From: Planctomycetes bacterium syqfu
GTDB lineage: Bacteria; Planctomycetota; Phycisphaerae; Phycisphaerales; Phycisphaeraceae
Assembly (NCBI GenBank): GCA_020974905.1
Contig: CP087563.1
Span: 2,852,001-2,916,000 of the forward strand
Length of the DNA: 64,000 nucleotides
Direction of reading: 5' to 3'
In this document: piece by piece, positions 11,229-37,981 of the stretch
Layout: each line of letters opens with the position of its first letter
How positions within the stretch are numbered: position 1 is the first letter of the stretch
The notes under the pieces: generated by a model
Told to the model about the DNA's origin: nothing
The model's database searches: none
The model's input: only the letters and a program-made list of their open reading frames with translations
Program-made: the position numbers and the translations under genes

Positions 11229-11717
11229 CAACACCCTCCGAATGAATGACGGCAACGATATGACGCGTCAGCATCATATCTGACACATATCGCATGTTCT
11301 GGACCACGTTGGATTCCTTTCCCCGGTCATGAGAAGACCAGTCAATAAGACCACCCCGCCATCTTGTGGCATGGAATAATGGCAGCAAATAGCGCGCCGG
11401 GAAATGTGTTTTGAGAATATGTTGAATGTAGAGGTATTATGAAATGGACACACATCGTCGACTGCCATTAATGACAACACAACACACCAATCTGTCATGC
11501 TGGCAGAACACGTTACATATTTTTGATTCGTACCCATCAAACAACTCACGCAACACCGTCGTTCATTCTACGTACGTATGCGATTGGGGTTATGAATGAG
11601 GGTATATATCCACAATATCTGAATATAATACCAATGGCCCTTGAAAACATATGTTCATATGATATTTTCTACACCCCGCCTGTCTATTTGTTCCCCATTT
11701 TTTACAAGGAGTTCCCC
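11229..11717. other. Divergent intergenic region with candidate promoter
   Basis: About 490 bases between the leftward phage module and a rightward small gene, with no convincing coding sequence. The right part is AT-rich. On the plus strand TTGAAA at 11641-11646 and TATTTT at 11663-11668, 16 bases apart, form a plausible sigma-70 promoter about 50 bases before the ATG at 11718. An imperfect inverted repeat (GAAAACATATG / CATATGATATTTTC, 11643-11669) overlaps it and may be an operator. Confidence 0.4.
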
Positions 11718-12128
11718 ATGACAACATCCAATGTGGCAATTGAATTGCGCAGGCTCGTGCAACAGCTTCATGACGAGCGTGCTGAGCACGTCAAGGCCAT
11801 CGAAGCCATTGACCAGACATTCAAAGACTTGGGATTAAATGCATCTCAGATCAAGCCTGTCGCCAATACGCAGCCCGTTAACCCTAAAAACACTGCAATT
11901 CATGACATAAAACGTACCCGCAAGACATTTGCTGTTACAGCCGATGCGTTTGTCTTGTCATTCATACAAGCCAACCCAGAATGCAGCACGGCACAGGTCA
12001 ATGAGCATTGGATAGCAGATGGCCGCAATGGGAAGGCCGATCAAACGCTGTTCAAGCTTGTGAAGACTGGACAGATTACTCGCAAGAATATCAAAGGACG
12101 GAGAGGGAGCATGTATACTGTTAAGTAA
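11718..12128 (+). CDS. Small coiled-coil and winged-helix protein
   Basis: A 136-residue basic protein. Residues 5-40 form a heptad-like coiled coil (ELRRLVQQLHDERAEHVKAI). A Pro/Asn/Lys linker follows, and the last 55 residues look like a winged helix: AFVLSFIQANPECSTAQVNE, then a wing ending GRRGSMYTVK. Similar small proteins occur in planctomycete mobile elements, probably as DNA-binding regulators or nucleoid proteins. The ATG at 11718 is preceded by AAGGAG at a spacing of seven; earlier in-frame ATGs lack such a site. It is divergent from the phage module and is followed by a strong terminator. Confidence 0.65.
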   Translation: MTTSNVAIELRRLVQQLHDERAEHVKAIEAIDQTFKDLGLNASQIKPVANTQPVNPKNTAIHDIKRTRKTFAVTADAFVLSFIQANPECSTAQVNEHWIADGRNGKADQTLFKLVKTGQITRKNIKGRRGSMYTVK

Positions 12129-12150
12129 TTATTATTCTCACAAATTAGAT

Positions 12151-12185
12151 AATATAAAACCCAGCTTAATGCTGGGTTTTATATT
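12151..12185 (+). terminator. Strong bidirectional terminator
   Basis: Perfect 15-base arms AATATAAAACCCAGC and GCTGGGTTTTATATT around a five-base loop, 22 bases after the stop of the winged-helix gene. The arms are A- and T-rich at the base, so it can act in both directions. The following 290 bases up to 12475 show no gene or clear signal; this may be the right border of the phage-like segment. Confidence 0.85.
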
Positions 12186-12475
12186 ATTCATTATTAATCG
12201 ATTATGATCTCCATATACGTCATCAACAAGCCGATTCGGTTGGCGATGCCAAGCTACCGGTGATCAAAATCATTCAGCGCCATCTCGCAGTATAACTCCC
12301 AACCATGATCGCATATCCAATGAGCAGAGCAATCCAGTGCGATTACTGTCGCATGCGTGTTACGTATTTATTGAACTGAATTAAGCGTAATCTGGTGTTT
12401 CAAAGATGAAAAAAAACACATCAAACCAGCGTAATAATCCACCGAGCCATTACAGGCATACATTTGTGAATGACC

Positions 12476-13501
12476 TTATAGATTTTCAACACCATAAGAC
12501 AATCCAATCGCTTTGCGCCATTGATCCTGTGTTCGCATGTTTCCCAGGGAATCGGCCCATGTCATTGCCGGTGCGGGAGCCTGGGTGAGATCAGCTTGAA
12601 TGGCTTGGCCGCAGACATCTGCTTCAAGTGTATAGTTTGTGACATCCGTAGCAATCTCAAATTCCTGTGGCAATTTTTGGCCATAGCGTTTGACTGTGAA
12701 TTGGACTGATTGTGCACCTGCATTGGGTATGTGGATTCGACCTTTGCTACCGTAGACATGTACACCGGAGTTCTGATTCACACCGACACCACAACTAATA
12801 GTTGCCACGATGCCGTTTTCAAACGCCAGTGTCCCCACAGCCCATGCGTCGGCACCAGTCTGTGGATGCAGGTACCCGGCTCCTGTAACCGCAATGGGAT
12901 CGGCAAAAGGCTGGCCCACGGCTGCACCGGCAATCAGGCGTGCCATGGTTGTTGCATAACCGCCAACATCAAGAATCGCTCCTCCTCCCAACTGCTTGTC
13001 CCATAAACGCGATTTGGCGTTGAATCCCGCATCAAAAGATACCACAGCGTTGATCACTCGTACTTCGCCAATTTCACCATCTCGTATCAATTGGATCAAT
13101 TTTGGTATTTGTGGGTGGCAACGAGTCATGTATGCTTCCATCAGAAAAACCTGATGCACTCGCGCAGCATCAATCATTTCTTTTGCTTCTTGATGGTTCA
13201 TCCCAATGGGCTTCTCCACCAGAACATGCTTCCCTGCCTGAATAGCCTGAATGCACCACTTGTGATGCATCGGATGTGGAGTCGAAATGTAAACGGCCTG
13301 CACATCCGGATCTGCAAGCAAATCGTCATACGAACCATACGCCCGAGGAATCTTAAATTCCTTGCAAAATCCATCAGCCTTTTCTTGTGTCCGTGAACCG
13401 GCAGCAAGCAATTCACCTGTCTGTGATTTGGTTACACCCGATGCAAAAGTCCTTGCAATGGCACCTGTTGCCAATAGTCCCCACTTCACTCGTTCAGTCA
13501 T
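12476..13501 (-). CDS. Gfo/Idh/MocA family oxidoreductase
   Basis: A 341-residue NAD(P)-dependent sugar oxidoreductase. The N-terminal Rossmann fold starts VKWGLLATGAIARTF with the GxGxxA-type turn altered to ATGAIA. EKPIGMNHQEA near residue 95-105 carries the family's catalytic EKP lysine. The C-terminal alpha/beta domain has LGGGAILDVGGY. It resembles the D-xylose dehydrogenase / dihydrodiol dehydrogenase branch, which oxidises or epimerises pyranose sugars in the cytoplasm. It is the last gene of the operon with the two large secreted proteins, 36 bases behind the 1248-residue protein, and probably handles a sugar they release. The substrate cannot be read from the sequence. Confidence 0.85.
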   Translation of the reverse strand: MTERVKWGLLATGAIARTFASGVTKSQTGELLAAGSRTQEKADGFCKEFKIPRAYGSYDDLLADPDVQAVYISTPHPMHHKWCIQAIQAGKHVLVEKPIGMNHQEAKEMIDAARVHQVFLMEAYMTRCHPQIPKLIQLIRDGEIGEVRVINAVVSFDAGFNAKSRLWDKQLGGGAILDVGGYATTMARLIAGAAVGQPFADPIAVTGAGYLHPQTGADAWAVGTLAFENGIVATISCGVGVNQNSGVHVYGSKGRIHIPNAGAQSVQFTVKRYGQKLPQEFEIATDVTNYTLEADVCGQAIQADLTQAPAPAMTWADSLGNMRTQDQWRKAIGLSYGVENL

Positions 13502-13537: not shown

Positions 13538-16500
13538 CTACGGTAACTCCGTCACCGTCCAATTCCCCGCGTTTGTTCCGAAGCTCAGCTTTACAGTCGT
13601 GATCAGATTTGAGCCGACTGGTTCGCCGACATGTTTAAATTGACAAGGAACCGGCACATCAAATGTCATCTTCACACTGCCATTTGGCGCGGTCCATTTG
13701 AAATAACTGACGGTTGCTGTACTGCCCTTCGTGATGGTGACAGGATTGTCCGATGCATCAAACGCCCCCAATGTCACCTGGCTGCTATAGGCAAGTGGCA
13801 GATACAGGTCATGTTGATTCCAACTCCCGCCGGTGAGGGTGGCCTGGGATTGCATCTGTCCTGATGTAAAGCTCATGGTGCGCGAGAGTGTCAATGAGCC
13901 GGTCAATTCGACTGTGCTGGTCATGGTCTGCGTCACTTGCGAACCGCCCAGTGTGACAGGAAGCGTCTTGGCAAGATAGCGGGTACTGCCGACGTTGATC
14001 GCATCACTGCTGACAAGCATGAGATATTCCGGGTCGGGATTACCATCAAGCAGATGTTCACGTTGGGTGTCACCGAGAATCAGCGGGCCGATGTCTTCAT
14101 GCCAGAGCAAAGCCAGGCCATTACCCGGGGGGCCTTGGGCGGGATTGAGATTGCCGTTGTAGGTGATGGCATACCATTGATTGAATCGTCCAACCTGAAA
14201 TTCACCTGCAAAATCCCGGTAATACGGCGGTGTCAACTGACACCCCATCTGCGGGATGGTCGTGGAAACAGCCGGTGCGAAATAGGACAGGTTCCCACCC
14301 AGAAGATCACCGCCACGCCCTTGTCCGACACCATCATTGGGCGCCTTGTTCCACCAATGGGTGACGGTATTGCGTGCCAGAGTCGGATCGATGCAGTTCC
14401 ATGTCACATAATAGTGTGGGGATTCGGGCGCGTAACGTGACAATATGCCTGCGGCATCGGGCATATCCGCCATCAGTCGATTGCTCGGATACCCGCCGAT
14501 GAGTGATGCGGCTTTGCGATGGTTCCAGTTCAAAGGCACATTGAGCAGACCTTCCTGATTGATAAAGATCAGGTGACGGCGGAGCTCAAAACTTTTCTGG
14601 AGACTGTCCCATATGTCAAGATTGCCGGTCTTGCGATAGAGTTGACCGAGCATGTATTCGTTGATGGCATTGTAATTGCCGTCGATCCCGCCCTGCTCGT
14701 GATAGTAACCGGCCTGGCTTTGGCCCATGTTGTGATCGTTGCCACTGTTGTGATTAAAACACGCATTTAAATGTCGGTGAAATGCCTGTAAAAACAGGCT
14801 GTCCTGTGCGTAGTCCGCGGTTGCTTCCAGTCCGACAAGAATGTGCATCCACTGATTGTTCATGTAGCTGTCATAGTGCTGATAGCGATGCGTCAGTGCA
14901 ATCAGGCCATCCAGAAACGCCTGTCTCAAATCGGAAGGCATCTCGTCTTCGAGCAAGCCGAACAACTCAATCATGGCTGGGAAATAAGCAAAGGCATTGC
15001 TGTCAGGAACGTTGGCCGAGGCAGATTCACAGTGAATGATCTGCGCCTGGCCGATCATCAACCAACTCTGAATGGCTGCGGCGATGACGCGGTATTTCAA
15101 GCCAGGATCACCGGCGTAAGGATTCAACCCGCCGGCATCATAGGCATACAGCCAGGCCAACCCATGAGCGCGGCGTGCCTGGTCGAAATTGGCATAACCA
15201 TCGGGATTGGGCACCACACCTGACAGATCGTCAGGTGTCATCATTCCAAGCCACGGCGACGTGGTGTCGAGATTTTGCCCCGGCAAGTCCTCGACCGCCT
15301 GGTTGATAAAACCGTATAAGCCAAAGGCCGACACGTTCTGCACCATCACCGAACCGGCGATCGCAGATAGATTGGGCATGGTCGGTGAGGTTGGCGTTTG
15401 CAGCGAAAAATCGGCAGCCACGCGGTCCTCAAGCCAATCGACCATAACCGCCTGCCAGGCATGTGCCACGCGACGATTGCCGGTGTCGATATCATCACCC
15501 GCGTTTGCCAGTGCGTCTGCTTCATTGGACCAAAGCACACCGGGGATACCATAACAAGCCATGCGCAGTGTCTGCCCACCGGATTGCACAATCCGCCAGA
15601 CATGCCCGCCGGTGACATTGGTAAAGTCCATGGCCGTTAAACTCAATGTTGATTTGACCGCAGTCACCTGGTCGATGAGTGTGTTGTTGTGATCGTAGAC
15701 CGATATCACCTGATTGGCGTAAGGTGAACTGACACGCAGTGTCCATTGCGTGACATCATCGGGAATATATACATAGTGTTCGGACTGTTGATCACCATGA
15801 ACACCCAGGCAATACCCGCCACTGACGCCAATATCCGTTGGCTGATCCATGGCTACGGCAAAACCATTGTGCATGCCACTGGTGACCAGGCGATAACAAC
15901 CGCTTGGCAAACCGAGCATGTCGAGAAAGCCTTCGTACCAGCCGGATTGTGTCTGCTGTAAGTCGAACGCGCCGATGCAATGATCCTGCGTATCGTAAAG
16001 TCGCACATCCAACCATGCGGGTAAAGCGTCTGCCTGCACCGGTCCGGTCTGGTATCGGAAGTGAACGCGTGAGGTCTGGTTGGCGGTGTGGTTGAGATAG
16101 AACGTTGTGCCGCTGTAATTGGTGCGGTTGAAATTGGGTGCATCCCAGACGGCTTTACCACTGTTGTCCAGCAAGGTTTCATAGGGATCGGTGATCGAGC
16201 TATCCAGGGGCGTGACCTTGCTCATGAGGACGGTATCGCCGGTGATTTGCGTACTGTCTCGCAATGCGAGCTTGCGGATGATCAGGCCGGTTCCGGCAGT
16301 GGGTGTGGCGCCCCAACCGCTGTTGCAGAGCATGGCCTTGGTGATCAGGCTTTTGCCCGTGGGCGAACGGGTGACGCCAAAACCACCGGTCAAGGCGAAA
16401 CGCAACAGGCGTGGCCCAGTCCAGTCGACGTTAAACGACGCGAGGTAGTAATCCATATCACCATTTGGCCCGGGGCTGGTGAGTTGGAGATTGATCTGCG

Positions 16501-17284
16501 CACCGGTCGCTGCATCCGAAATCAACAGCAGATCCACGGTGTCAAACGCCGACCAATCATCCCAACCCGGCTCGTTGGGTTGGATGCTAAGCCACTTGTC
16601 ATACGTCGAACCGGCATCCCAATCCAAAGCGGCCTGGCCGTCAATGATGAGATAATCACTTGCAGTCAGTTCGCGTTGGCTGAATTTCCAATGTGTGCCA
16701 AAGTCGCGCAGTTCCCGGCCTGAAAGCGTGTTTTTCAGAACCAGTTGATGAACCCGCAGCACGGTGTCGGCCACAGGTGTCGCCCCCCAGCCACTGCTGC
16801 AAAGCATCGCGCCGGTCACTGAGCCAAGACCGTCAGGCGAACGGTACTTGGTGAAGTCACTGAACAAATTGAGCCGGAAAATTTTCTGCCCGGTCCAATC
16901 GACAATGAAGGAATACAGGTAGTAGTCCGCTCCGTCGTTGGGGCCGGTGCAGCTGATCTGGAGATTGATCTGCGCGTTGGTGGCCGTCTGTGAATCGATC
17001 ACCAGCTCGATGGTATCAAAGTCCGACCAATCGGAACCGGCGATGCCATCGGCATCAATGTTGACCCACTTCTTGGCCGAGTTGTGTGCTTCCCAAACCA
17101 GAACCTGGCCGGTGGGCGAGGATTCGATTTCCGAGGGCGACACACTTTGCCCTGAAATGTTCCAGCCGGTGCCATCGGTCCAGAGATGGGTTTGGCGAAT
17201 AATGACAGGTTCAGAAGCAATGGCGAAACTGGCAAGTAAGAAATGGACAAAGACCAGTAAAACAAGGCTCATACGACCGGGCAT
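13538..17284 (-). CDS. Large secreted multidomain protein, putative glycan-degrading enzyme
   Basis: A 1248-residue exported protein with a signal peptide ending near AIASEP. Residues about 25-350 hold two tandem beta-sandwich modules that look carbohydrate-binding; they share INLQ..PGP...DYYL and MLC.SGWGATP. Residues about 620-1000 are helical and contain NNQWMHI and GYYHEQGGIDGNYNAINEY. The rest is beta-rich with LALLWHEDIGPLIL. Helical toroid plus beta-sheet is the layout of heparinase-like polysaccharide lyases, but I cannot assign a family. The 941-residue protein encoded at 20445-23270 shares these motifs in the same order, so they are paralogues. The start is the ATG at 17284 with AGGAG seven bases before. 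Confidence 0.7.
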   Translation of the reverse strand: MPGRMSLVLLVFVHFLLASFAIASEPVIIRQTHLWTDGTGWNISGQSVSPSEIESSPTGQVLVWEAHNSAKKWVNIDADGIAGSDWSDFDTIELVIDSQTATNAQINLQISCTGPNDGADYYLYSFIVDWTGQKIFRLNLFSDFTKYRSPDGLGSVTGAMLCSSGWGATPVADTVLRVHQLVLKNTLSGRELRDFGTHWKFSQRELTASDYLIIDGQAALDWDAGSTYDKWLSIQPNEPGWDDWSAFDTVDLLLISDAATGAQINLQLTSPGPNGDMDYYLASFNVDWTGPRLLRFALTGGFGVTRSPTGKSLITKAMLCNSGWGATPTAGTGLIIRKLALRDSTQITGDTVLMSKVTPLDSSITDPYETLLDNSGKAVWDAPNFNRTNYSGTTFYLNHTANQTSRVHFRYQTGPVQADALPAWLDVRLYDTQDHCIGAFDLQQTQSGWYEGFLDMLGLPSGCYRLVTSGMHNGFAVAMDQPTDIGVSGGYCLGVHGDQQSEHYVYIPDDVTQWTLRVSSPYANQVISVYDHNNTLIDQVTAVKSTLSLTAMDFTNVTGGHVWRIVQSGGQTLRMACYGIPGVLWSNEADALANAGDDIDTGNRRVAHAWQAVMVDWLEDRVAADFSLQTPTSPTMPNLSAIAGSVMVQNVSAFGLYGFINQAVEDLPGQNLDTTSPWLGMMTPDDLSGVVPNPDGYANFDQARRAHGLAWLYAYDAGGLNPYAGDPGLKYRVIAAAIQSWLMIGQAQIIHCESASANVPDSNAFAYFPAMIELFGLLEDEMPSDLRQAFLDGLIALTHRYQHYDSYMNNQWMHILVGLEATADYAQDSLFLQAFHRHLNACFNHNSGNDHNMGQSQAGYYHEQGGIDGNYNAINEYMLGQLYRKTGNLDIWDSLQKSFELRRHLIFINQEGLLNVPLNWNHRKAASLIGGYPSNRLMADMPDAAGILSRYAPESPHYYVTWNCIDPTLARNTVTHWWNKAPNDGVGQGRGGDLLGGNLSYFAPAVSTTIPQMGCQLTPPYYRDFAGEFQVGRFNQWYAITYNGNLNPAQGPPGNGLALLWHEDIGPLILGDTQREHLLDGNPDPEYLMLVSSDAINVGSTRYLAKTLPVTLGGSQVTQTMTSTVELTGSLTLSRTMSFTSGQMQSQATLTGGSWNQHDLYLPLAYSSQVTLGAFDASDNPVTITKGSTATVSYFKWTAPNGSVKMTFDVPVPCQFKHVGEPVGSNLITTVKLSFGTNAGNWTVTELP

Positions 17285-17425
17285 ATGGTGTCTCCTAAAT
17301 AGAGTCGGCGAGATAAGCGAAAATAGACGTGTTGCACAGCAACAAGAAATCGCCCCCAATCCCGTAATTTCCTTCCAAAATCCCCAGCCATAATCCTCTT
17401 CTTAAAACGGATACTTCAATGCAAA

Positions 17426-17477
17426 ATCACTTCGTCGGCGGGTGACAGCTATCAACATGTCCCGCCGACGAAGTGAT
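17426..17477 (-). terminator. Long perfect hairpin between operon genes
   Basis: Arms of 17 bases (17426-17442, ATCACTTCGTCGGCGGG, and 17461-17477) are perfect complements around an 18-base loop. On the minus strand TTTTGC follows. It lies between the LamG gene and the 1248-residue protein gene, so it is a partial terminator, attenuator or mRNA stabiliser that could lower expression of the downstream genes. Confidence 0.65.
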
Positions 17478-17495
17478 GTCAAAGCGTGTTTCGTG

Positions 17496-20336
17496 CTACG
17501 GCATGATGGCTAAACCCACGATGGCCTGACTACTCAACGCAGCGCGATAGAGTCGGACATCATCGATCGTGCCAGCGAGATTTTCATTAACACTCCCGGC
17601 CGCACCGATCATCAATGCACCGATTCCACTGGCGTTAGCTGACGTGCCGGTCTGAACGGGCGAGCCATCCACATAGAGTATCCGCGTCCCAGCCGAACCA
17701 TCTTGCACCACCGCCACATGATGCCAACCCGTCGTGGCAACCGGGCCAACAACATTATTGCCATAGGCACCGGCAATCCAACGGTTGGTGTTATCCAGCC
17801 AGATGCCGTACCAAGGCGAGACATCGCGACTCTTGGTTACAACACCGGTCCACTTGTTGGGGAGTGTTGGTAGATTCACCCAGACACTGAGGGTGTAACT
17901 TTCACTGGCGGTGAATGTCAAAGCTGCATCATGGGCGATGACGATTGAATCACCGTTGCCATCAAGCGTCACCGCACCGTTCAAGCCGGTCATCCATGTT
18001 GCGTCACCTTGGAGTGAGCCGTTATGGGTATTACCCGAACTGTCCAATGCGGTACTACCACTGCCATCAGTTAATGCCAGGTGCAATTGCAGGTCACTTG
18101 CCGCCAAGGCGTCGATTTCCGTGCTGTTGAGTGCAATGCTGTAGAGTTTGACTTGATCGATGATACCAGTGAAGTCTTCGCTGACACCAGTTGCGCCACC
18201 GATGACAAGATCACCTGTGCCGGTGGCTGCCTTGGCGATTCCAGTCTGTACGGACGTGCCATCGACATAGAGTGTGCGTGTGCCTGCCGAGCCGTCCTGG
18301 ACAACTGCAATGTGATGCCAACCCAGTGTCGCAACCGGACCGACGAGATTGCTGCCATAGGCACCGGCTATCCAGTGGTTGGCACTGTCGAGCCAGAGTC
18401 CAAACCAGGGTGCACTGTCGCGACTCTTGGTGACGATCCCGGTCCATTGCCCGGGTAGTGTTGAAAGATGGACCCAGGCTGCCAGCGTGTAACTGCCGTC
18501 GACACCGAAGGCGATACCTGAATCATGCGACACCACGACCTTGTCACCCGAACCATCGAAAATCACGCCGCCGCTGGCAAGACCGGCAATCCAATCTGTG
18601 TCACCTTGTAACATGCCACTGCGTCCGTTACCTGACGCGTCGGCAGCGATCGAACCGGTGCCATCATCCAATGTCAGATCGACTTCCAAGCCATTACCGG
18701 TCGCCTGATTGACAACGACCGTCATGGTGTCGCTGCTGGTCAAGTCACCGTCGTCTGCGCTGAGTTGCAGGACATAGGTTCCCGCTGAGCCGAATGTCGC
18801 GCTGGTGCTGGGCGAACTGTCGTCAACAAAGATCACCGAGCCGGGGCCAGACTGTTTGGTCCATTCACTGGTAACACTGGCAAAGGGCAGGCCGTCATCA
18901 CTGACCGAGCCGGAGAGTTGCACCGAGTCGGTGGGCAGGGTGATCATCTGGTCACTGCCGGCATTAACCACCGGTGCCTGATTCTGCTGGGGCGGACCTT
19001 GCATGATCGTCTGAATCTCAGCCACCGAAAGCGCGTGGTCATACACCCGCACATCGTCAATTCCCCCACTCCAGAATTCGGGATTGGCGTTGGTCTGTCT
19101 ACCGACACGCAACACGGACGGATTGAGATTCATCGACGAATTGTTGACCTGCCCGGCAAGGACTGCGTCTTCGTAAAGCTTGAAGGTCTGCCCGTCATAG
19201 GTCAACGTAATGTGATGCCATTGGCTATCGGTAAAGACATCGTTCTTGGTGATGCTGGTACTGGCGTAGGCGCCCGCGCCCAGATCGTCACCGATACGAC
19301 CGATCCAGATGCCTTGATTTGCGGCTGGCGAACCGAGACTGGCGATGATGTGATAACCACTGGACGTGCTGCCACTCTTTGCCCAGCCGCATACACTCAC
19401 CGGTGATGAGCCCGTGGGCATCTGCGAAAGACTTGTCGTTTCGGCATAGGTGCTTGTGCCGTTAAGTGACAGTGAGCCATCGATCTGCCCTGTCTGCCAG
19501 GAACCATTGTAAACGGTCGCATCACTTTGATAGGTGGAGCTATCTTCGGCAGTGGAACCTGCGGTTTCGTCAAGCGTGTAATGAGCCAGCAACCCGCCGT
19601 CGGGGTCAGTTGTGGTGTCCATATGGAAGTTGCTGTATCGTTGCCAGTGCCAATCGTAGGGTGATGTGTTATCGCCCCACATGGTCAGCAATCCCGCATA
19701 CCACTGCCCGGCCTTCACAGGTAAAGGCAATGTCTCGGGGTGCATGGTCCATGTCGATTGAGCAGGAAACTTCCAGTACGTCGTCACCTGCCCATTGACC
19801 AACACCAGACGTAAATCGATATCCCACGTGTAGGAATAAAGCGGCGCCCCAAAATCAATGCGGATTTCATCATCGCCCGGATAGTCTGGCAAAGATGGGT
19901 TATGTGGGTGATCCACGTAGCCGTTTTCTTCACGAAGCGTGATGAGAAATGCCTGGTTATTGGATAGGTTTTCGATGACCAGCTTCACGTAGTTGTCATC
20001 GTCATAGTAAAAGATAATCCCTGCCTGCTCTCCCCAATATTGCGTCGTGGCATGCACACGCACGGAGATGTCCACATCATTGGAGACGTCAATGGGACGA
20101 ATCAGAATATTGTGTGTATCGTTTGGATTTGTCAGATAGATCGATCCCAGGTGTGAACGCACTTCCAGACCATTGGCCGTGTTCTGCCATTCCGAGGAGA
20201 CTTCACGAACCCAGGACCAACCTGAATCAAACCCGTTGATCAGCGAATCATCAAACACCTGTGCGCGTGATGGATTCGTCATTGCTGCCAGTACACAACA
20301 CATCATTACAATCCCTTGTGCAAGATTTCTTTTCAT
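17496..20336 (-). CDS. Secreted LamG/PKD-domain protein
   Basis: A 946-residue exported protein with a signal peptide (LAQGIVMMCCVLAAM, cleavage near SRA-Q). Residues about 28-245 resemble the DUF1349 / concanavalin-like sandwich (GEQAGIIFYYDDDNYVKL). A LamG-type domain follows at about 250-440 (SVCGWAKSGS, WHHITLTYDG), then a PKD domain at about 455-545 (VNAGSDQMITLPTDSVQLSG), then two further LamG domains at 550-745 and 746-946 that are near duplicates. No catalytic residues are evident, so it is probably a glycan-binding or adhesive partner of the large secreted proteins on either side in the operon. The start follows AGGGAAAG. Confidence 0.8.
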   Translation of the reverse strand: MKRNLAQGIVMMCCVLAAMTNPSRAQVFDDSLINGFDSGWSWVREVSSEWQNTANGLEVRSHLGSIYLTNPNDTHNILIRPIDVSNDVDISVRVHATTQYWGEQAGIIFYYDDDNYVKLVIENLSNNQAFLITLREENGYVDHPHNPSLPDYPGDDEIRIDFGAPLYSYTWDIDLRLVLVNGQVTTYWKFPAQSTWTMHPETLPLPVKAGQWYAGLLTMWGDNTSPYDWHWQRYSNFHMDTTTDPDGGLLAHYTLDETAGSTAEDSSTYQSDATVYNGSWQTGQIDGSLSLNGTSTYAETTSLSQMPTGSSPVSVCGWAKSGSTSSGYHIIASLGSPAANQGIWIGRIGDDLGAGAYASTSITKNDVFTDSQWHHITLTYDGQTFKLYEDAVLAGQVNNSSMNLNPSVLRVGRQTNANPEFWSGGIDDVRVYDHALSVAEIQTIMQGPPQQNQAPVVNAGSDQMITLPTDSVQLSGSVSDDGLPFASVTSEWTKQSGPGSVIFVDDSSPSTSATFGSAGTYVLQLSADDGDLTSSDTMTVVVNQATGNGLEVDLTLDDGTGSIAADASGNGRSGMLQGDTDWIAGLASGGVIFDGSGDKVVVSHDSGIAFGVDGSYTLAAWVHLSTLPGQWTGIVTKSRDSAPWFGLWLDSANHWIAGAYGSNLVGPVATLGWHHIAVVQDGSAGTRTLYVDGTSVQTGIAKAATGTGDLVIGGATGVSEDFTGIIDQVKLYSIALNSTEIDALAASDLQLHLALTDGSGSTALDSSGNTHNGSLQGDATWMTGLNGAVTLDGNGDSIVIAHDAALTFTASESYTLSVWVNLPTLPNKWTGVVTKSRDVSPWYGIWLDNTNRWIAGAYGNNVVGPVATTGWHHVAVVQDGSAGTRILYVDGSPVQTGTSANASGIGALMIGAAGSVNENLAGTIDDVRLYRAALSSQAIVGLAIMP
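17499..18690 (-). repeat. Tandem duplication of a LamG-coding unit
   Basis: The last two LamG domains of the 946-residue protein are encoded by two consecutive units of about 597 bases that are still clearly similar at DNA level. Examples are the blocks near 17761-17830 and 18358-18427, both with CATAGGCACCGGC and CATCGCGACTCTTGG or a close relative. Protein copies share GWHH.AVVQDGSAGTR.LYVDG. Confidence 0.75.
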
Positions 20337-20444
20337 TGTGTTCTTTCCCTGTTAAAGCCATCTGAAATTGTCCGACTGTGGAATCACTTGAATGATCATG
20401 GTGATCAGCGTCCGGCATGATCGGTCATGGTTTTACGTTTCACG

Positions 20445-23270
20445 TCAGTTCACATACTCCACGCGCACCCCAGCCCATTGACCGTTTCCTGAGAGTGGGA
20501 TTTGCAGACACGTGACGGATTTGCCCGTGGTCTTGCGTGGTGGCGTAAGTTTGAGTGGTTGGCCATCAAGGCTGGTCATATTGAGGGTGGCCTTGCCTTT
20601 GGTGATTTGAAGTTTTTGAGGGGAAATTAAACGGGCTTGTAATTTGGATTCCCCAGTCGCCAACGGGAGATTGATCCAGGCTTCGGTAACCATGCTTGAT
20701 TTGAGTGATGCGGAGATGATGACGGCGTCATCGAGAAACTCATATTGCCAGGTCAGTTTCCCACGTGGTTTATTGAGTTTGCTGGTGATTTGGCAGTGTT
20801 GGTTGGGCTTGATCCAGGTGAGTGTGGGTGATTCAGTGCCAGTGATGAAAGTGTGTGATTTCTGGAACGTGCCGAAGATGCAACTGCGTGTCAGGTCATC
20901 AGAAGTCTTGGCGTGATTCCAGTTGTTGTTCATCACGGACATGATGATGGCACCAAGTTCTTTGGACCATAGGACAGTCGGGCCACCACCGTATTTACCC
21001 ATGAGTTTACGATTGGGATTGCGTCCGGTGATGTCGTAGAACACAGTGCCATAGAGCGAGCCACGTTTGTATGCCAGGTGCCCGGGAAGTTCCCATGTGT
21101 TATCAGGCCCCTGCCAAGGTAGTGTGACGGTCTGTGGCTTTTCAGGTTGCTCACAGTAGGCTTCAATGATGTGTGGTGTCCAGGCACCTGCGATCCCGCC
21201 ATTGCCTTTAAATGCGGTGATGCCGCGTGGGACCATATGTTGAATCAGGCGCATGGCCCAATCGTCATTGTTGGCCAGATGCGGGAAGACAGCCGCCCAA
21301 CCCGGACCTTTCTTCGGATCTTCATTGAGTTTCCATCGCGTGTATCCCAGTGGAAAAACGCCACCTGCCATGAAGTCTCCGGGCCAACTCGGGTGGGCGA
21401 TGGAAGCCGTCTTGCGACAGTTAAAGACATTGGGACATGGCATGCCACCATCGTCATTAACCAGCCAGTAGAACTTCTTGAATTCGAGATTCTTTTGAAT
21501 CCCATCATGAATCAACTGCACCAGTTGCAAGTCGGCTTCTTTGAGTTTTCGATACGCCAGGTAACCGGCCACGATGGAAAACTGGTTGAGACTGTCGTAG
21601 TTTCCGTCCGGGCCGTATTCTTCGAGATAAAAGCCAGTGGGGTGTTGGCCGTACTTGGCATCGGTGCCGAAGGCGCCGGTCATAAACGCGTACATCTGTC
21701 GTTCGTAGTATCCAAGGAAGCGTTTCTCACCGGTCGCCAGATAAGTATGCAGGTGACCGAGCACCATGTGCATCCACTGGTTGGACTCATACGCCTGGTA
21801 GTCGGCGATTTTGTCACCCACCGCCATGAGCCCCTGTTTCCACAATTCATACGTATCCGGATCAAGTCGATCTTTCAGCAATACAAGCGGATTGGCCATG
21901 GCTCCGTCATAGGAAAAAAAGACATGGGTCATGGGATAGCTTTTGCTTTCGAACGTGCCCTCGCGCACCAGGTCATCGCCCTGCCGGGTACTCATGTGAT
22001 AGAACGCGCTGAGCACCGCTCGATTGATGATCGCCGGATTGTTGTAATAGACATTAAGCTGGGTTTGCGTGGTGGCCAACGCACCGAGTCCAGAAGCATC
22101 GCTGAATGACCGTACGCCGCCAGCCAGGAAGTTCTGCCAACACAATTCATCGGCAGGTGTGGGCTTGGCATTGTCAGATGTGACCCCCATGTACGGGTCA
22201 GCAGGATCGGTGATCTGATTTTGCAGTTCATTGCCCAACGTGGAGATGGCACCATATTTGCCAAAGAGCAGACACTCACGCAAAGATTCTTTGAGATGGG
22301 CGGGAACCGTCTTGGGGAACTGGATCTTTGGATCAAAGTCCGAAGCTTTTTTCGATGTCATCCACTGTCGCATGCGTGCCTGATTGGGACCGGCGTGGAC
22401 AAAGCCTGCTGCGGTCACGATGCCACCAGCAAGCTTGCGAGCGGCCTGCGGTGTCGGGCAAAGTAAACCGGGGATGCCGTCCAGCGCGATGGCGCAATTG
22501 CGACTCCCGGACAAATCAAGTTGAACCAGCGCATCGGCTGGTGCGTTATCCAGCAGGATTAACTTTCGACCTTTGACATTACGGGTCTGCGCAAGTGTGT
22601 TGCCCTTCTCATCAATCAAGGTCACCGGCGATTGGCTGCGACCGAATTGTTCGATAATAATTTTCCGCACAGTGCGGGGCGCATAGACATAAGGCTTCTG
22701 CGGCGTGGACTCGGTGATCCCCAAAGCCATCTCCCCGCGCACGCCCCACGTGTCAGTTTGTGGCAGACCGATGAAAAATTGATCGCCCCCCCGGCCTCCA
22801 CTCATGGATACACGATAGATACCGGCCTCGGATTCGGGGACGTCAATGATATAGCTTTGATCACTGGCAGATTGCTCTGTCAGTTCATGGACTGCAAGGA
22901 GATTGCCCTTGGGATCAAACACACGTGCCAGGCAGATCGGTGTGTAGGGTTCATCACGATTTTTCTGCGTCACCCGGCGAATCAACACTTTGCCCGGCCC
23001 GCCATCGGGATACATCGCCAACATGCCAAAGCCACGGACACCCCCACCCAGGACATGGTTGAATGTCCGTTGCATGATGGGGAATGCCTTGCGTTGTTGA
23101 TCGTTGATGACGGCGATCTTAATAACTGAAGGTGACGAAGCCGTCACAGCCGGGCCGGCATCCTGGGCGTTGTGTAACTGGGCGTCGGGGAGTTGTTGAG
23201 CCTTGACAACCATTCTTGTCATCGACATGGCAATCAGGAAAGTCAAGCTGGCAAGTGTCAGAGTTTTCAT
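20445..23270 (-). CDS. Large secreted protein, paralogue of the 1248-residue protein
   Basis: A 941-residue exported protein with a signal peptide (MKTLTLASLTFLIAM, ending near VVKAQQ). It has no binding modules like those of its paralogue; a short beta-rich N-terminal region is followed by a helical central region with ESNQWMHMVLGHL and GFYLEEYGPDGNYDSLNQF, then a beta-rich end with GPTVLWSKELGAIIMSVMNN and WQYEFLDDAVIISASL. The order and spacing match the paralogue. The fold resembles alpha/alpha-toroid polysaccharide lyases, so a secreted polysaccharide-cleaving enzyme is the best guess, without family assignment. The start at 23270 puts the initiator at the signal peptide; two in-frame ATGs lie upstream. 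Confidence 0.68.
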   Translation of the reverse strand: MKTLTLASLTFLIAMSMTRMVVKAQQLPDAQLHNAQDAGPAVTASSPSVIKIAVINDQQRKAFPIMQRTFNHVLGGGVRGFGMLAMYPDGGPGKVLIRRVTQKNRDEPYTPICLARVFDPKGNLLAVHELTEQSASDQSYIIDVPESEAGIYRVSMSGGRGGDQFFIGLPQTDTWGVRGEMALGITESTPQKPYVYAPRTVRKIIIEQFGRSQSPVTLIDEKGNTLAQTRNVKGRKLILLDNAPADALVQLDLSGSRNCAIALDGIPGLLCPTPQAARKLAGGIVTAAGFVHAGPNQARMRQWMTSKKASDFDPKIQFPKTVPAHLKESLRECLLFGKYGAISTLGNELQNQITDPADPYMGVTSDNAKPTPADELCWQNFLAGGVRSFSDASGLGALATTQTQLNVYYNNPAIINRAVLSAFYHMSTRQGDDLVREGTFESKSYPMTHVFFSYDGAMANPLVLLKDRLDPDTYELWKQGLMAVGDKIADYQAYESNQWMHMVLGHLHTYLATGEKRFLGYYERQMYAFMTGAFGTDAKYGQHPTGFYLEEYGPDGNYDSLNQFSIVAGYLAYRKLKEADLQLVQLIHDGIQKNLEFKKFYWLVNDDGGMPCPNVFNCRKTASIAHPSWPGDFMAGGVFPLGYTRWKLNEDPKKGPGWAAVFPHLANNDDWAMRLIQHMVPRGITAFKGNGGIAGAWTPHIIEAYCEQPEKPQTVTLPWQGPDNTWELPGHLAYKRGSLYGTVFYDITGRNPNRKLMGKYGGGPTVLWSKELGAIIMSVMNNNWNHAKTSDDLTRSCIFGTFQKSHTFITGTESPTLTWIKPNQHCQITSKLNKPRGKLTWQYEFLDDAVIISASLKSSMVTEAWINLPLATGESKLQARLISPQKLQITKGKATLNMTSLDGQPLKLTPPRKTTGKSVTCLQIPLSGNGQWAGVRVEYVN

Positions 23271-23402: not shown

Positions 23403-24089
23403 TTACCAGTAGATGTTGTTAAAAGCATGCATCTGGAAAATCTTGTTCTTGTCCAGATACGGACTCTGGTTATTTTCGGTGGTGACATGGCCATCAAGGA
23501 ACCAAACATTTTCTCGTTCGCCGTGCCGTGAGTAGATAAAATTCGGTCCCCAGACATCAGAGATTCCATAGGTCCACCAGACTGAAGGATTGCCATAGAG
23601 ATCAGAGTCATACATGAATGACGTTTTGCTGGGTTTGGTGAACTCAAATGGACGTGTGGTGTCCAAACGGTTTTGTGAATGACGATTGGCACGACTGATG
23701 GCGGTATATCCAAAGCAGTCGGTGATCACCGTGCTGTCAGGACAGATTTCAACCGGCAGGTTGGGATATTTCGTCCCGCCGTTCCACCACATCCCGTTTT
23801 CATATCCATTGGGAAAATAGTACGGTCGTAGAATCTGAATCCCGTAACTGCCGGCATGGCCATCGAGACTGACATACGACGGGGGAAACCATTGGTCATG
23901 GTCATTGGTGTACATCGCCCAAGCCAATCCCATCCCACGGAGATTACTCATGCACTGCATGATTTTGGCCTGCTTGCGGGCACCGGCAAGAGCTGGCAGG
24001 AGAATACTGATCAACAGTGAAACAATGCTGATGACCACCAGTAATTCGATGAGTGTAAATCCGCAGGATGCTGTGGAACGTTTGTTCAT
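23403..24089 (-). CDS. Type II pseudopilin-like protein with H-X9-DG motif
   Basis: A 228-residue protein starting [20 protein letters not shown], the prepilin peptidase recognition leader (cleavage after G10, with E5 of the mature form) followed by a hydrophobic helix. Its end carries HGERENVWFLDG, exactly the H-X9-DG motif of the planctomycete/lentisphaera pilin-like family. These proteins are assembled or anchored by type II secretion-like machinery. It lies between the LacI regulator and the secreted proteins, so it probably aids export or surface display of glycan-active proteins. AAAGGA lies seven bases before the ATG. Confidence 0.88.
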   Translation of the reverse strand: MNKRSTASCGFTLIELLVVISIVSLLISILLPALAGARKQAKIMQCMSNLRGMGLAWAMYTNDHDQWFPPSYVSLDGHAGSYGIQILRPYYFPNGYENGMWWNGGTKYPNLPVEICPDSTVITDCFGYTAISRANRHSQNRLDTTRPFEFTKPSKTSFMYDSDLYGNPSVWWTYGISDVWGPNFIYSRHGERENVWFLDGHVTTENNQSPYLDKNKIFQMHAFNNIYW

Positions 24090-24163: not shown

Positions 24164-25282
24164 TTAGTGACATACCGGGCCTAACGATTGGCCCTCAAGA
24201 AATTCAGTTTCAAGTTGCAGACTCATCGGCAAGGCGTCGAATCCGGCCAGCCGTCGACGAATCAATTCCGGGATCACCTTGCCAATCGCATCCATGGGTA
24301 AACACACGCTGGCGATGCGTGGCAGTTGCTTCTTGACCGACTGACCCTTGATCCCACCATAACTGACCACGCTCATATCCTCAGGTACACGCAAGCCACG
24401 CTGCTTAAGCACCTCAATGACACAAAGTGCAATGTCATTGGCTGGCGTGACCAAAGCCGTGGGTTGCGGGCGAAGTTGCAGAAACTGTCCGATGACATCA
24501 CTGACCACTTCCACAAGTTTCTGGTGACGCCAATCGCGTTCGATGAGAATCAGCGGCTGACGATTGTTGTGAATCTGGCAATACGCCAGGTTGGCCCAGG
24601 CGGCATAGCGCACCGTGTGAATCGAGGAACAAAGACGATCCACCAGGCAGGTGCTGTCATACATATCCGACCATTCGTGAGCCGTTGCATGACGATCGAC
24701 GATGCCGAACCAGCCGATGGCCTGATGACCCAGTTCGGTGAGTTTCTTGTAGAGCAAGGCGGCCGAGCGATGCTCATTGGTATAAATACTGTCGACCTTG
24801 CTTTGATGGTCATACGACACGGCATAGACCGCAGGTAACATCGGTCGAAGTGTCTCCAGCCAGTCCGTTGGAATCGGTTGTCTTAAAACCAAACCATGCG
24901 GGCGATGCTTCTGCACTTCGGCAACGATCTGGTCAAGGTTCTCAAGCTTGATGACCACCAGCTTCCCCCCGGTGAGTTCGAGTTGCTCAGACAGTGGATC
25001 GATGATTTGACTGTCCATCTGACAATGCAATGGCTGGTCGCTTGCCCCAAACTTTGGACTGACTTGAATACCCAACAACACACGCAAGTGTAGATCGTTA
25101 CCCGCACGAACCGAACACAGTCCCTGGCTGACACTCTCCCTGCAATAACCCAGCCGTCTGGCTACTGTGACCACGCGCTGGCGCGTCTTGGGATTGACCC
25201 GCCCAAGACCACGTAAGACGCGTGAGGCAGTCATGGGACTGACCCCGGCTTGTTTCGCAATGTCCTGAAGCGTGGCTATCAT
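24164..25282 (-). CDS. LacI family transcriptional regulator
   Basis: A 372-residue regulator. The N-terminal helix-turn-helix is TLQDIAKQAGVSPMTASRVLRG, with the hinge helix about residues 45-60. The periplasmic-binding-protein-like effector domain follows (VSYGGIKGQSVKKQLPRIASV near the end). It is the first gene of the operon that continues into the pseudopilin (74 bases) and the secreted proteins, so it likely senses a breakdown product and controls this operon. Confidence 0.88.
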   Translation of the reverse strand: MIATLQDIAKQAGVSPMTASRVLRGLGRVNPKTRQRVVTVARRLGYCRESVSQGLCSVRAGNDLHLRVLLGIQVSPKFGASDQPLHCQMDSQIIDPLSEQLELTGGKLVVIKLENLDQIVAEVQKHRPHGLVLRQPIPTDWLETLRPMLPAVYAVSYDHQSKVDSIYTNEHRSAALLYKKLTELGHQAIGWFGIVDRHATAHEWSDMYDSTCLVDRLCSSIHTVRYAAWANLAYCQIHNNRQPLILIERDWRHQKLVEVVSDVIGQFLQLRPQPTALVTPANDIALCVIEVLKQRGLRVPEDMSVVSYGGIKGQSVKKQLPRIASVCLPMDAIGKVIPELIRRRLAGFDALPMSLQLETEFLEGQSLGPVCH

Positions 25283-25662: not shown

Positions 25663-28182
25663 TCAGGCAAGTACCGCTTCCTGACAAGGCACGTAGTCGA
25701 TCTGCCCGACATCGATCTGCCCATGCTTCACATCCACCGACACCTCTTCGTCCTTTACGCAGACCAGACCAAAGCCCGTCGCGGTACTCAGGAAGCATTG
25801 AAAGTCACCGGGAATCTGAGGCTTGACGGTGAGCTTCTTATCGATGGCGTCATAGACAATGCCGGTGAGTCCCTGGAGCAAGCCGTAACTCGACAGTGCC
25901 CGGGCATACCAGTGTCCGCATTCGATTTCGTTAAATGGATTCCGGATCACGCCGTTGTATCGATCGCGTGCGGCACGGACAATCGTCAGGCCATGCTCGA
26001 CATGTCCCATCATCATCAGGTGTGATGCAACGTGATACTCGATGCCGGTCCAGACTTCATTGCTGTAAGGAAACGGCAGCGAGATCGCCCCGCCCTTGGG
26101 CCAGGAACAGAGCAGCAGACCGCCTTCCTGGCCACAGGCATACCCACTACGCTGTGGATTGATGTGATCGACCAGGGTGTCTCTGAAGTTGTAACGGAAG
26201 ATGCTTTGCAGATGCGAGTCGAGTTTCGTTTCGTCAATCACACTATCCATACCACTGACCCGACACATCCAATCGCCCAGCACCCCATCGGACAGACACC
26301 CTGTCCCGTATTGATACTTGGGCCCTTCGGCATGGAGTAACGCCAACGCCTCATCGGAATAGTTAATGGGAATCAGGCTGTCATTTGAAAGGTGCGGTGG
26401 CTTGGTGTGCAGATCTTCCCAACGGATTTTCTGAATGAAATACTCACCGTCGTACAGTTGGCTTTCCATGGCCTTGCGACCGCGTTCATAGAGCATGTCA
26501 TAGCGATCCGACTTCTCATCCAGCGCCCCTGCCATGAGGGATGCGGCTTTGAGAGCGCCGAGATAAAACGAGGTACACATGCCATCGGGGCCCCAGAACT
26601 CAATGTCATAGGTGTTGTGATGCGGCTCGACGAGCAGACCCGTTTCATCCGGGTCCCACACCTTGATGCAGTAATCCATTGAAGCCTTGGCGGCCGGCCA
26701 GAGTTTTTTGAGCCACTGTGTGTCACCGCTGATTCGCCAGTCCCGGTAAAGCTTGATGATCCCACCAAGCTGACCATCGGCGGCAGCATGGTATCCAAAC
26801 GTCGTTTCAGTGATCGGCAGGTTACTGCGAAAAGCCTGTTTGCCCTGCTCGTTCTGTGATGGCCCGTACTCCGTTTCACGCAGCGTGCGTTCCAGGTCGG
26901 GAAACAAATGACAGATCGCCTGGGCATAATTCCAGACGTGCGTGCAACTGCCATGGCAGCAACCCGAGTCATCGTGACAACCCTCCCAGGCCCAGAGTCG
27001 GCCGTCATGCTGCCTTAACACCGTGGGGGATTTGAGAATACTCAGGTTGGCTGAAACCGCTTCGAGCACTTCGTCAGGCAACGTGCTTTTGTAAAAAGTC
27101 TCAGAAAACAAGGCACTTTTCTCGCGCAGTTCGTCATGCTTGACCTGCCAGTAGTGTCGGAGCATCGCCCCACTGCCAAAGCGCGAGGCATACCACGGGC
27201 GATAGGTCGCCGGCTCATCGCTGCAACACTTGCCATCATCACAACCGCAATCCGACTCGGCCTCCGGCTTATTGCCAGCCTTCACATCACTGACCGGTAC
27301 AAACCAACTCAGCAGTACCTGCACCGATTGACTTTCCCCCGGATTCAAAGTCAAGGGCACAAACAAACTTCCGCCGGGACTTGGATTGCCATCGGTATAA
27401 CCGCCTTGCGGTGTGGTGTCGCCGGATACGATCTTTTTCATCAGCATCGTCAAACCGTCAAACCAACCCCCACGGAACCAGTTGCAATCCACCTGCGTCT
27501 GATCCGAATCGCACCAGGCGGCAAATTCGCCGTAACCCGCCGGGTCATTCACCGGCGCGCCTTGGGTCATCACAAAGCCCTGACCTTCACCCACAACGTG
27601 AGGTAATGGATCCTCCTTGGCACGAAGGTTCGGTGTAACCATGACATTTTGGTGGGCATGAAACGAATACACCGCTTCAACCGGTTTGTCCGACGTGTTG
27701 GTGAACGTGTACTTAAGCGATGCCACCGGCAAAGATGCACTTTCCGAATCCCCAGGCACAAACGGGCTAAACGCGGTGAGTTGACAGGCCAGGGGCATGT
27801 CATGATGAGTAAAGTCCACCGTAGCAAAGGGAAAGCGCGCGGTAAACGTAGAGGATTCAAACAACGGCAGGCCGTAGGTCTTATTGTAAAATCCGTTGCC
27901 CGAGCTTTGATGATATTTATTGTTACCCGCATCCCAACGCGAACCGAGTTTCCAATCCGGCGGCGGCCCCTCAAGCACGCGCGTGCCGTGTTCCATCCCG
28001 CGAATGTGAATTGTCGAGAATAACAACGGCTCAAAAAAGACACGTGGATTGTGTCGAATCGACACCTGCGCCAACTTGCCCGAGCCCTCCAGACAAATCA
28101 TCCCGGCCCCCATCCCGCCCAGGGGAAAGCCGCTACGCGTTAAGTGTTCGTTGGTGTAACTTTGGTTGTAGGCATGTGCCAT
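25663..28182 (-). CDS. GH116 family glycosidase (glucosylceramidase-like beta-glycosidase)
   Basis: An 839-residue enzyme matching GH116, the retaining beta-glucosidase/beta-xylosidase family that includes GBA2. The N-terminal beta-domain holds SGFPLGGMGAGMICL (residues 17-31). The (alpha/alpha)6 barrel has SCTHVWNYAQ (about 412-421) and HHNTYDIEFWGPDGMC with the expected nucleophile E528. The expected acid/base D632 is in GCLSDGVLGDW. There is no signal peptide, so it acts in the cytoplasm, probably on imported oligosaccharides or glycosides. A short Cys-rich insert (CGCDDGKCC, about 312-320) looks unusual. The ATG at 28182 follows GGAG at nine bases, and a perfect palindrome lies just upstream. 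Confidence 0.88.
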   Translation of the reverse strand: MAHAYNQSYTNEHLTRSGFPLGGMGAGMICLEGSGKLAQVSIRHNPRVFFEPLLFSTIHIRGMEHGTRVLEGPPPDWKLGSRWDAGNNKYHQSSGNGFYNKTYGLPLFESSTFTARFPFATVDFTHHDMPLACQLTAFSPFVPGDSESASLPVASLKYTFTNTSDKPVEAVYSFHAHQNVMVTPNLRAKEDPLPHVVGEGQGFVMTQGAPVNDPAGYGEFAAWCDSDQTQVDCNWFRGGWFDGLTMLMKKIVSGDTTPQGGYTDGNPSPGGSLFVPLTLNPGESQSVQVLLSWFVPVSDVKAGNKPEAESDCGCDDGKCCSDEPATYRPWYASRFGSGAMLRHYWQVKHDELREKSALFSETFYKSTLPDEVLEAVSANLSILKSPTVLRQHDGRLWAWEGCHDDSGCCHGSCTHVWNYAQAICHLFPDLERTLRETEYGPSQNEQGKQAFRSNLPITETTFGYHAAADGQLGGIIKLYRDWRISGDTQWLKKLWPAAKASMDYCIKVWDPDETGLLVEPHHNTYDIEFWGPDGMCTSFYLGALKAASLMAGALDEKSDRYDMLYERGRKAMESQLYDGEYFIQKIRWEDLHTKPPHLSNDSLIPINYSDEALALLHAEGPKYQYGTGCLSDGVLGDWMCRVSGMDSVIDETKLDSHLQSIFRYNFRDTLVDHINPQRSGYACGQEGGLLLCSWPKGGAISLPFPYSNEVWTGIEYHVASHLMMMGHVEHGLTIVRAARDRYNGVIRNPFNEIECGHWYARALSSYGLLQGLTGIVYDAIDKKLTVKPQIPGDFQCFLSTATGFGLVCVKDEEVSVDVKHGQIDVGQIDYVPCQEAVLA

Positions 28183-28198
28183 GTGCAAAAACTCCTAT

Positions 28199-28214: not shown

Positions 28215-28301
28215 TACGCAATCATAACAACAGGTCAAGTCCTCTTGCATTAAAAAAATTCAAAAAATCAAAATGATCAACCCCGGGAGCCAACGCTGTG
28301 A

Positions 28302-37941: not shown

Positions 37942-37981
37942 GCCGTAACCTTCCCTGTGTTCAATTTAGTTCTCTGATCTA

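Follow-up and report, generated by a model that had tools for sequence, protein, structure and literature searches.

What kind of protein is encoded by the two large, mutually similar genes that frame positions 13538 to 23270 of the DNA analysed here, a 64,000-nucleotide window of the Planctomycetes bacterium syqfu genome (contig CP087563.1, positions 2,852,001 to 2,916,000)? An earlier note, made from the sequence alone, had taken the two products, called P1 and P3 below, for paralogous secreted proteins of no catalogued family, and for candidates of a new polysaccharide lyase (PL) or hydrolase family. The conserved residues and predicted fold suggest that P1 and P3 probably belong to a family of secreted enzymes of the PL type that would act on a uronate polymer by tyrosine-based beta-elimination. 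Their similarity is far above chance, BLASTP aligning 569 amino acids (aa) at 27% identity (E 8e-39, 144 bits), which bears out the claim of paralogy. The three motifs named at the time, NQWMH, a GxDGNY block and a strand with LW (residues 1060-1061 of P1, 767-768 of P3), were all located in both proteins in identical order. Counted from its ATG at 17284, P1 has 1248 aa, and its frame stays open as far as a TTG at 17359; P3, starting from an ATG at 23270, has 941 aa, with an alternative upstream ATG possible at 23312. Both N-termini resemble signal peptides, as judged by eye, in line with the claim that a secreted pair fills the interval, except that a third gene for a secreted protein (17496-20336) also lies inside it.

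The enzyme family is missing from the Pfam and NCBIfam libraries searched. Pfam gave no family for P3 at E<=1 and only an N-terminal CBM_11 match for P1 (E 8e-8), and in NCBIfam the two proteins had chance-level matches (E 0.07 and 0.09). Thirteen members (set A2) matched no lyase family of Pfam at E<=1, and the Hepar_II_III and Lyase_8 models matched neither P1, P3 nor any of these 13 at that threshold. The Hepar_II_III model itself finds matches in 104 of the 150 class genomes searched, and 11 in the host genome. Sequence searches of the PDB up to E 10 returned one unrelated match for P3 (phmmer; contactin-5, E 0.12), four unrelated tRNA-modification proteins for P1 (best E 0.89), and nothing for a 13-row family profile. 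The hidden Markov model (HMM) comparison that the earlier note had proposed has thus produced no confident catalytic match from either Pfam or NCBIfam, nor has the PDB yielded a related sequence; the note's statement that the pair falls in no catalogued family holds for catalytic domains and fails for the CBM_11 region of P1. No account of the family was found in the published literature searched, most subscription journals lying outside its coverage, so that absence is unproven.

The fold of P3 is more informative. An AlphaFold2 model built on 21 aligned members, with a mean predicted local distance difference test (pLDDT) score of 85 and a predicted template modelling (pTM) score of 0.90, begins with beta strands, as far as about residue 265, continues with helices from 274 to 707 and ends with strands from 724 to 940. 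It therefore shows the (alpha/alpha) toroid plus antiparallel beta-sandwich that is the trait of the Hepar_II_III group of Pfam, which we take to comprise PL12, PL15, PL17, PL21, PL35 and PL39 and, in a wider grouping, PL33. The top Foldseek matches of the model are PL35 (8khv, E 9e-11) and PL33 (8r75, 1.2e-10), followed by PL8 (1n7r, 1.1e-9) and PL12 (4mmi, 1.1e-7). VIA-align gave PL17 4ok4 (Z 17.5, 484 residues aligned, root-mean-square deviation [rmsd] 4.4), the chondroitinase 9o3q (Z 17.4, 480, 4.3), human dermatan sulfate epimerase 6hzn (Z 17.3, 503, 5.5), PL39 6jp4 (Z 17.1, 488, 4.3), PL12 4mmi (Z 17.1, 478, 4.3), PL35 (Z 16.9, 489, 4.2) and PL33 (Z 16.3, 498, 4.8; for 8r75, Z 16.1, 500, 4.8). 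VIA-align rows less than 1 apart in Z were treated as tied, and because these values are tied no single PL family is nearest to P3. Sequence identity in the best two-domain matches is only 6-12%; the matches extend to residue 940 or 941 of P3 and so cover toroid and sandwich alike, and it is this two-domain coverage, rather than the toroid alone, that points to lyases. The fold comparison that had been proposed as a check accordingly ended on the two-domain architecture of PL8, PL12, PL17, PL33, PL35 and PL39, and on no non-enzymatic fold.

Ahead of the toroid lies an N-terminal beta module, modelled separately with a pLDDT of 89.4 and a pTM of 0.88. Its fold search gave generic beta-sandwich matches only (best VIA-align Z 9.3, 98 aligned, rmsd 2.7), and template modelling scores did not exceed 0.29 among the best 50 Foldseek matches listed. 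A module of this type recurs at the C-termini of right-handed beta-helix proteins from other genomes of the phylum (Table 1); in the three of these that were scanned (L041, L051, L053) the region has no Pfam domain.

Conservation was counted across the 21-member alignment (A4), in P3 numbering. Y558 and N406 are invariant; N497, R417 and R619 are kept in 20 members, Q498 and D555 in 19, and E550 in 18, with Asp in 2 more. P1 and P3 retain the full conserved set despite their 27% identity. In the model N497 opens the helix 496-513 and Y558 the helix 556-573, 61 residues apart. In the parts of the published reports available, the corresponding Asn-Tyr spacing of lyases is 53 in PL39, 54 in PL12 and PL35, 57 in PL17, 59 in the PL8 chondroitinase AC and 63 in PL23 (PMC12088678), 53 in PL33 (N238/Y291; PMC11848413) and 60 in PL40 (PMC12915356).

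That N497 and Y558 are the counterparts of a lyase pair is suggested by profile comparison through an intermediate family. Against eight proteins of about 590 aa (set A5), the family profile scores a probability of 99.6% (E 1e-24). In these, N, E, G, D and Y are invariant, with lyase-like spacing; neither A5 member scanned (L030, L037) matched Pfam, and the five proteins scanned from A5 and a second group of about 600 aa had no significant Pfam match. The A5 profile in turn matches 12 Hepar_II_III proteins of the class with 68% probability (E 4.9e-5), Asn falling on Asn and Tyr on Tyr, the reversed-alignment control giving 0.1%. One of the 12, L092, matches heparinase III (4mmh) at E 9.8e-20 and places this pair at chain positions 216 and 270, which, given a numbering offset of 24, would be N240 and Y294. 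The roles of these two residues in heparinase III, a PL12 enzyme, are those of the published residue table, as far as the source was available (PMC12088678). N497 and Y558 would thus align with the catalytic Asn and Tyr of heparinase III, by way of the 68% step.

If so, the enzymes would likely carry out beta-elimination at a uronic acid of an acidic polysaccharide outside the cell, with Asn497 as the putative neutraliser of the +1 carboxylate. Tyr558 would abstract the C5 proton and hand a proton to the leaving oxygen in a syn elimination. Arg619 together with Glu550 and Asp555, perhaps with His501 where it is present, may activate the tyrosine in place of the usual shared histidine.

Several observations weigh against this assignment. 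One-domain toroid enzymes reach comparable scores: toroid-only matches, namely 7tem, the one-domain lyase Smlt1473 (7fhu), GlcNAc 2-epimerases and glycoside hydrolase (GH) families GH88 and GH105, have Z values of 15-17 over 266-303 residues, so part of the structural score reflects the common toroid. Compared directly, the whole family reaches only 8.6% with Hepar_II_III, over a non-catalytic stretch, and 2.0% with PL8-like proteins. A toroid-only profile reaches 17% and 3.5%, respectively; a merged profile reaches 66% with Hepar_II_III, the Asn one residue off and the Tyr correct, and 46% with PL8-like proteins, the Asn two residues off and the Tyr on the Tyr of their GGYG motif (the toroid and merged profiles exclude the degenerate L025). 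In L025 itself, five of the conserved residues (N, Q, E, D and R) are gone. The neighbouring GH116 enzyme, nearest to an exo-beta-D-arabinofuranosidase, gives no pointer to a uronate polymer. Finally, no histidine is invariant, though the lyases compared use one, and a catalytic His specific to each subfamily is possible.

The histidine question deserves closer attention. Among the 21 members no His column is invariant, the best being H501 in the toroid (15/21). A catalytic His is described for PL8, PL12, PL15, PL17, PL21, PL23, PL33, PL35, PL39 and PL40 in the sections available of three reports (PMC12088678, PMC12915356, PMC11848413), where it is the proposed activator of the catalytic Tyr in PL33 (PMC11848413), the base in PL40 (PMC12915356), and in PL8 His233, nine residues before Tyr242 (PMC12088678). 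The Asn-His-Tyr centre of PL8 is unmatched in the P1/P3 family: the PL8-like His aligns to the variable residue 552, and the position eight before the Tyr is Glu550. The beta-domain catalytic His of the Hepar_II_III group likewise has no conserved counterpart across the 21 members. H501 is present in every P3-like and every P1-like row; the P3-like rows also all have His at 425, 449, 506, 543 and 664, and the P1-like ones share His at several other columns. The family may tentatively be seen as a new group of toroid lyases that works without the histidine half of the Tyr/His dyad, with Tyr558 primed by Arg619 and the Glu/Asp pair, forming a superfamily with A5 and the second group of about 600 aa. 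We consider this doubtful, and have lowered our estimate of a His-free mechanism because H501 occurs in all P3-like and P1-like rows. If it held, the family would offer a natural experiment on the need for a shared histidine in toroid lyases. Since neither HMM membership nor a family-wide His was found, we assign the family to no existing PL family. As a new branch of an already known kind of enzyme the finding is solid, the missing shared histidine being the strongest point.

The alternative that survives best, unlikely as it is, makes the pair divergent members of a CAZy lyase family that already exists but has no model in Pfam or NCBIfam, and hence not new. PL37, PL40, PL41, PL43, PL44 or a newer family would presumably be the candidates. 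PL40 has a similar pattern, with N245-W246, D301, Y305, D358 and an Asn-Tyr spacing of 60, but also requires His485 and His487, as far as the published account was available (PMC12915356), while the 21 members have no invariant His; and the PDB searches described above found nothing related.

That this scaffold carries a glycoside hydrolase is less probable still. Glu550 and Asp555 would then serve as acid and base, with Tyr558 and Asn497 merely binding the sugar, which agrees with the near-invariance of both carboxylates, the lack of an invariant His and the adjacent GH116 hydrolase. GH88 and GH105 enzymes combine the toroid fold with two catalytic Asp residues, and these unsaturated uronyl hydrolases do appear among the toroid-only matches (2zzr, Z 16.1, 276 aligned, rmsd 3.9; 4xuv, Z 15.9, 269, 4.0). 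Their matches stop with the toroid at about residue 710, however, whereas the two-domain lyases match through 940-941. A lyase is favoured over a hydrolase because the most conserved residues, the Asn/Tyr pair, are better conserved than the carboxylates and align with the lyase pair through the bridging family. Of the two activities that the earlier note had left side by side, the lyase has therefore gained from the two-domain fold and the Asn/Tyr alignment, and the hydrolase has lost ground.

Very unlikely is a C5 uronyl epimerase, which would use the same proton abstraction by Tyr and re-protonate C5 without cleaving a bond. One of the best matches is human dermatan sulfate epimerase 1 (6hzn, above), and one member, L044 in genome G533, sits between flippase-like and glycosyltransferase-like genes, as named by eye; the setting with LacI, pseudopilin and LamG genes is of a catabolic, secreted kind, however, and the remaining top two-domain matches are lyases. 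The suggestion that P1 and P3 are lyase relatives that bind carbohydrate but have no catalytic activity, a reading for which the losses in L025 and the binding-protein-like product of 17496-20336 could speak, is the least credible of all given that both proteins keep the whole conserved set at 27% identity.

Table 1. Positions of P1, P3, their parts and neighbouring or related features
Feature	Position	Strand	Remarks
P1, secreted family member, 1248 aa	13538..17284	(-)	N-terminal CBM_11-like region; beta module, alpha/alpha toroid and beta-sandwich assigned via P3 homology
P3, secreted family member, 941 aa	20445..23270	(-)	AlphaFold2 pLDDT 85, pTM 0.90
P1 NQWMH, residues 810-814	14843..14857	(-)	putative carboxylate-neutralising Asn810
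P3 NQWMH, residues 497-501	21768..21782	(-)	putative carboxylate-neutralising Asn497; His501
P1 E863..Y871 (EQGGIDGNY)	14672..14698	(-)	putative catalytic Tyr871
P3 E550..Y558 (EEYGPDGNY)	21597..21623	(-)	putative catalytic Tyr558
P1 Arg923	14516..14518	(-)	aligned with P3 Arg619 column, 20/21 members
P3 Arg619	21414..21416	(-)	kept in 20/21 members
P1 best CBM_11 stretch, residues 68-146	16847..17083	(-)	Pfam; two stretches pass
P3 N-terminal beta module, ~residues 65-265	22476..23078	(-)	model
P3 alpha/alpha toroid, ~residues 274-707	21150..22451	(-)	model
P3 C-terminal antiparallel beta-sandwich, ~residues 724-941	20448..21101	(-)	model
Secreted 946-aa protein, not a family member	17496..20336	(-)	three LamG stretches, one PKD, GH43_C2-like domain (Pfam)
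Pseudopilin-like protein	23403..24089	(-)	N_methyl + DUF1559; same gene run as P3
LacI-family regulator	24164..25282	(-)	relatives beside other family clusters 39-66% identical
GH116 enzyme, upstream	25663..28188	(-)	closest PDB relative exo-beta-D-arabinofuranosidase 8ic6, E 2.7e-115
Gfo/Idh/MocA oxidoreductase, downstream of P1	12476..13501	(-)	gap of 36 bases
Beta module on beta-helix proteins	L041 1483-2127; L051 1456-2100; L053 1483-2127; L054 1504-2148		
A5 set, eight ~590-aa proteins	L030, L037, L050, L055, L056, L057, L067, L068		
Pilin	L071:5701-6546		seen in listing, outside pattern used; other L071 pattern match within 11262-12698

The host genome (G000, 7.38 Mb) has four members at two loci, the second of which (600.8-606.4 kb) encodes a P3-like protein, 60% identical, adjoining a distant third type (L004). 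At E<=0.001, own genome included, P3 as sole query found matches in 7 of 61 related genomes, and the 13-row profile in 17 of 397 genomes from the class and 21 of 392 from the phylum; many of the lower-scoring matches are partial, several covering only the toroid of a shorter protein of about 600 aa, or only the N-terminal module where it occurs on beta-helix proteins. Viral contigs and genome contigs searched with P3 alone held no relative, and genome contigs searched with the A3 profile nothing beyond G003, already in the sample. In a maximum-likelihood tree of the 21 members P1 groups with L011 and L008 (100/100) and P3 with L002, L005, L006, L042 and L044 (100/100). Two of the proteins grouped with P3 come from genomes outside the class (G652, G533), so P1 and P3 represent old subfamilies and did not arise by a recent duplication. 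L038, L045 and L025 have long branches and uncertain placement; L025, a 943-aa relative (G076, L075 8950-11778) that still has the Tyr, is possibly a non-catalytic or altered member.

The neighbouring genes recur. Sixteen member loci were read as six-frame listings, with gene names assigned by eye unless scanned (the loci of G036, G709, G484 and G721 are among those outside this set). A pseudopilin gene is present at nine (G000 twice, G001, G003 twice, G026, G005, G652 twice), none being seen at the other seven (G028, G588 twice, G533, G076, G549, G364). LacI regulators of a single clade, 39-90% identical to each other, occur at six. Three control LacI proteins are 19-24% identical to this clade over most of their length, with shorter local matches of up to 48% over 46 aa. 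Across 61 genomes the clade (E<=1e-30) occurs in 6, the enzyme in 7 and both in 5; the hypergeometric probability of 2.1e-5, uncorrected for kinship, is optimistic because three of the five belong to one genus. LacI relatives at 39-42% identity also precede a pseudopilin and a non-family secreted protein, GH39-like in G019 and unassigned in G001, and therefore the regulator alone does not determine which enzyme accompanies it. The two host loci use the same parts in different order, the window having LacI, pseudopilin, P3, LamG protein and P1, and the second locus LacI, LamG, pseudopilin, the P3-like protein and L004. Small LamG-type proteins, two of them scanned with Pfam, are 34-89% identical among the second G000 cluster, G003, G001 and G026.

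The genes of the P1/P3 cluster probably form an operon, in which the LacI-type repressor would presumably sense a breakdown product. The pseudopilin is presumably there for the export of the enzymes by type II secretion, perhaps as a dedicated component, and the 946-aa LamG/PKD protein is a probable glycan-binding partner.

Other neighbours vary: GH116 (window, G005), GH29 (G652, beside L061), a sulfatase (G588, near L062) and a GDSL esterase (G003). The GH116 protein of the window is much closer to 8ic6, published as the exo-beta-D-arabinofuranosidase ExoMA2 in the part of the report available (PMC10509167), than to the beta-glucosidases and glucosylceramidases of GH116, whose matches are no stronger than 2.6e-11. 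A D-arabinan substrate, considered from the GH116 gene, was not adopted as it rests on two loci, nor was a fucose-containing or a sulfated one, from GH29 and the sulfatase, each resting on a single locus.

Regulatory signals gave little. Rfam at the gathering score found nothing in the window, no shared palindrome emerged from the 17 upstream regions compared, and promoter-like (14 against a mean of 13.4) and terminator-like sites (18 against 14.5) are near chance. A perfect 16-bp palindrome, TCGTGTAATTACACGA, lies within 28186-28305, immediately upstream of the GH116 gene, and is not found upstream of the LacI gene. LacI and pseudopilin genes are paired across the host genome: among the matches listed, with at most 150 scored candidates for each, 48 of 127 LacI genes are followed by a pseudopilin gene of the same strand at a distance of up to 1.5 kb, where 1000 rotations gave a mean of 1.9 and a maximum of 21; the 150 pseudopilins listed do not include the one at 23403-24089. 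A pseudopilin and LacI pair at 43136-44910 has an equal-scoring copy about 69 kb on (G000:C1, about 2964806-2965972), in which the LacI frame has just 67 aa, suggesting a duplication with a truncated regulator. The surroundings of the P3-like L044 (L074 7723-10392) are unlike the catabolic setting elsewhere. Adjoining the member L010 in G005, a protein of 1198 aa (L020 10796-14389) has a sub-threshold Hepar_II_III_C match (E 0.037) and is perhaps another unassigned lyase. Elsewhere in the window, 35821-39903 holds a PF09370 (PEP_hydrolase) gene, a UPF0261 gene and a divergent gene for a sigma-54 activator with an N-terminal PF09370 domain.

If the lyase assignment is correct, family libraries have overlooked a family of lyases that comprises at least three deep subfamilies, and the P1/P3 genes would be a clear example of a cluster linked to LacI and pseudopilin genes, useful for finding the acidic polymers that these bacteria degrade.

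Among known systems, the Hepar_II_III group has the fold in common with the model of P3, and its Asn and Tyr can be aligned through the intermediate family with a probability of 68%, whereas P1, P3 and the 13 members have no Pfam match to it and do not conserve its C-terminal-domain His. The hyaluronate, chondroitin and xanthan lyases of PL8 also have this fold, and the merged profile sets Y558 on their GGYG Tyr, with a probability of only 46%; the His of their QHGP motif is the one that falls on residue 552, and Lyase_8 gives no match. The PL33 hyaluronate lyase BtPL33HA (8r75) shares the two-domain architecture, at 8-12% identity to P3, but lacks the beta module of about 200 residues ahead of the toroid, has the shorter Asn-Tyr spacing (53, against 61) and, in the part of its description available, an invariant activating His444 (PMC11848413), where the P1/P3 family has no invariant His. 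The PL40 ulvan lyase Uly1040 (9VTK) is likened by description: a toroid with a beta-sheet, and an Asn-Trp and a Tyr 60 apart, are published for it, as is its need, unlike the P1/P3 family, of a His/His/Mn centre with catalytic His485 and metal-binding His487, as far as the source was available (PMC12915356). 9VTK is not among the Foldseek and VIA-align matches listed for P3, which does not exclude a match. Human dermatan sulfate epimerase 1 (6hzn) has the two-domain fold at 8% identity but is an animal biosynthetic enzyme. For the gene setting, the closest likeness is Verruconatronum alginivorum: unlike those of the P1/P3 cluster, its lyases fall in assigned CAZy families with alginate as substrate, and the part of the report available describes a pseudopilin over-expressed on alginate together with the lyase clusters, in a genome with 67 homologous pseudopilins (PMC13274419).

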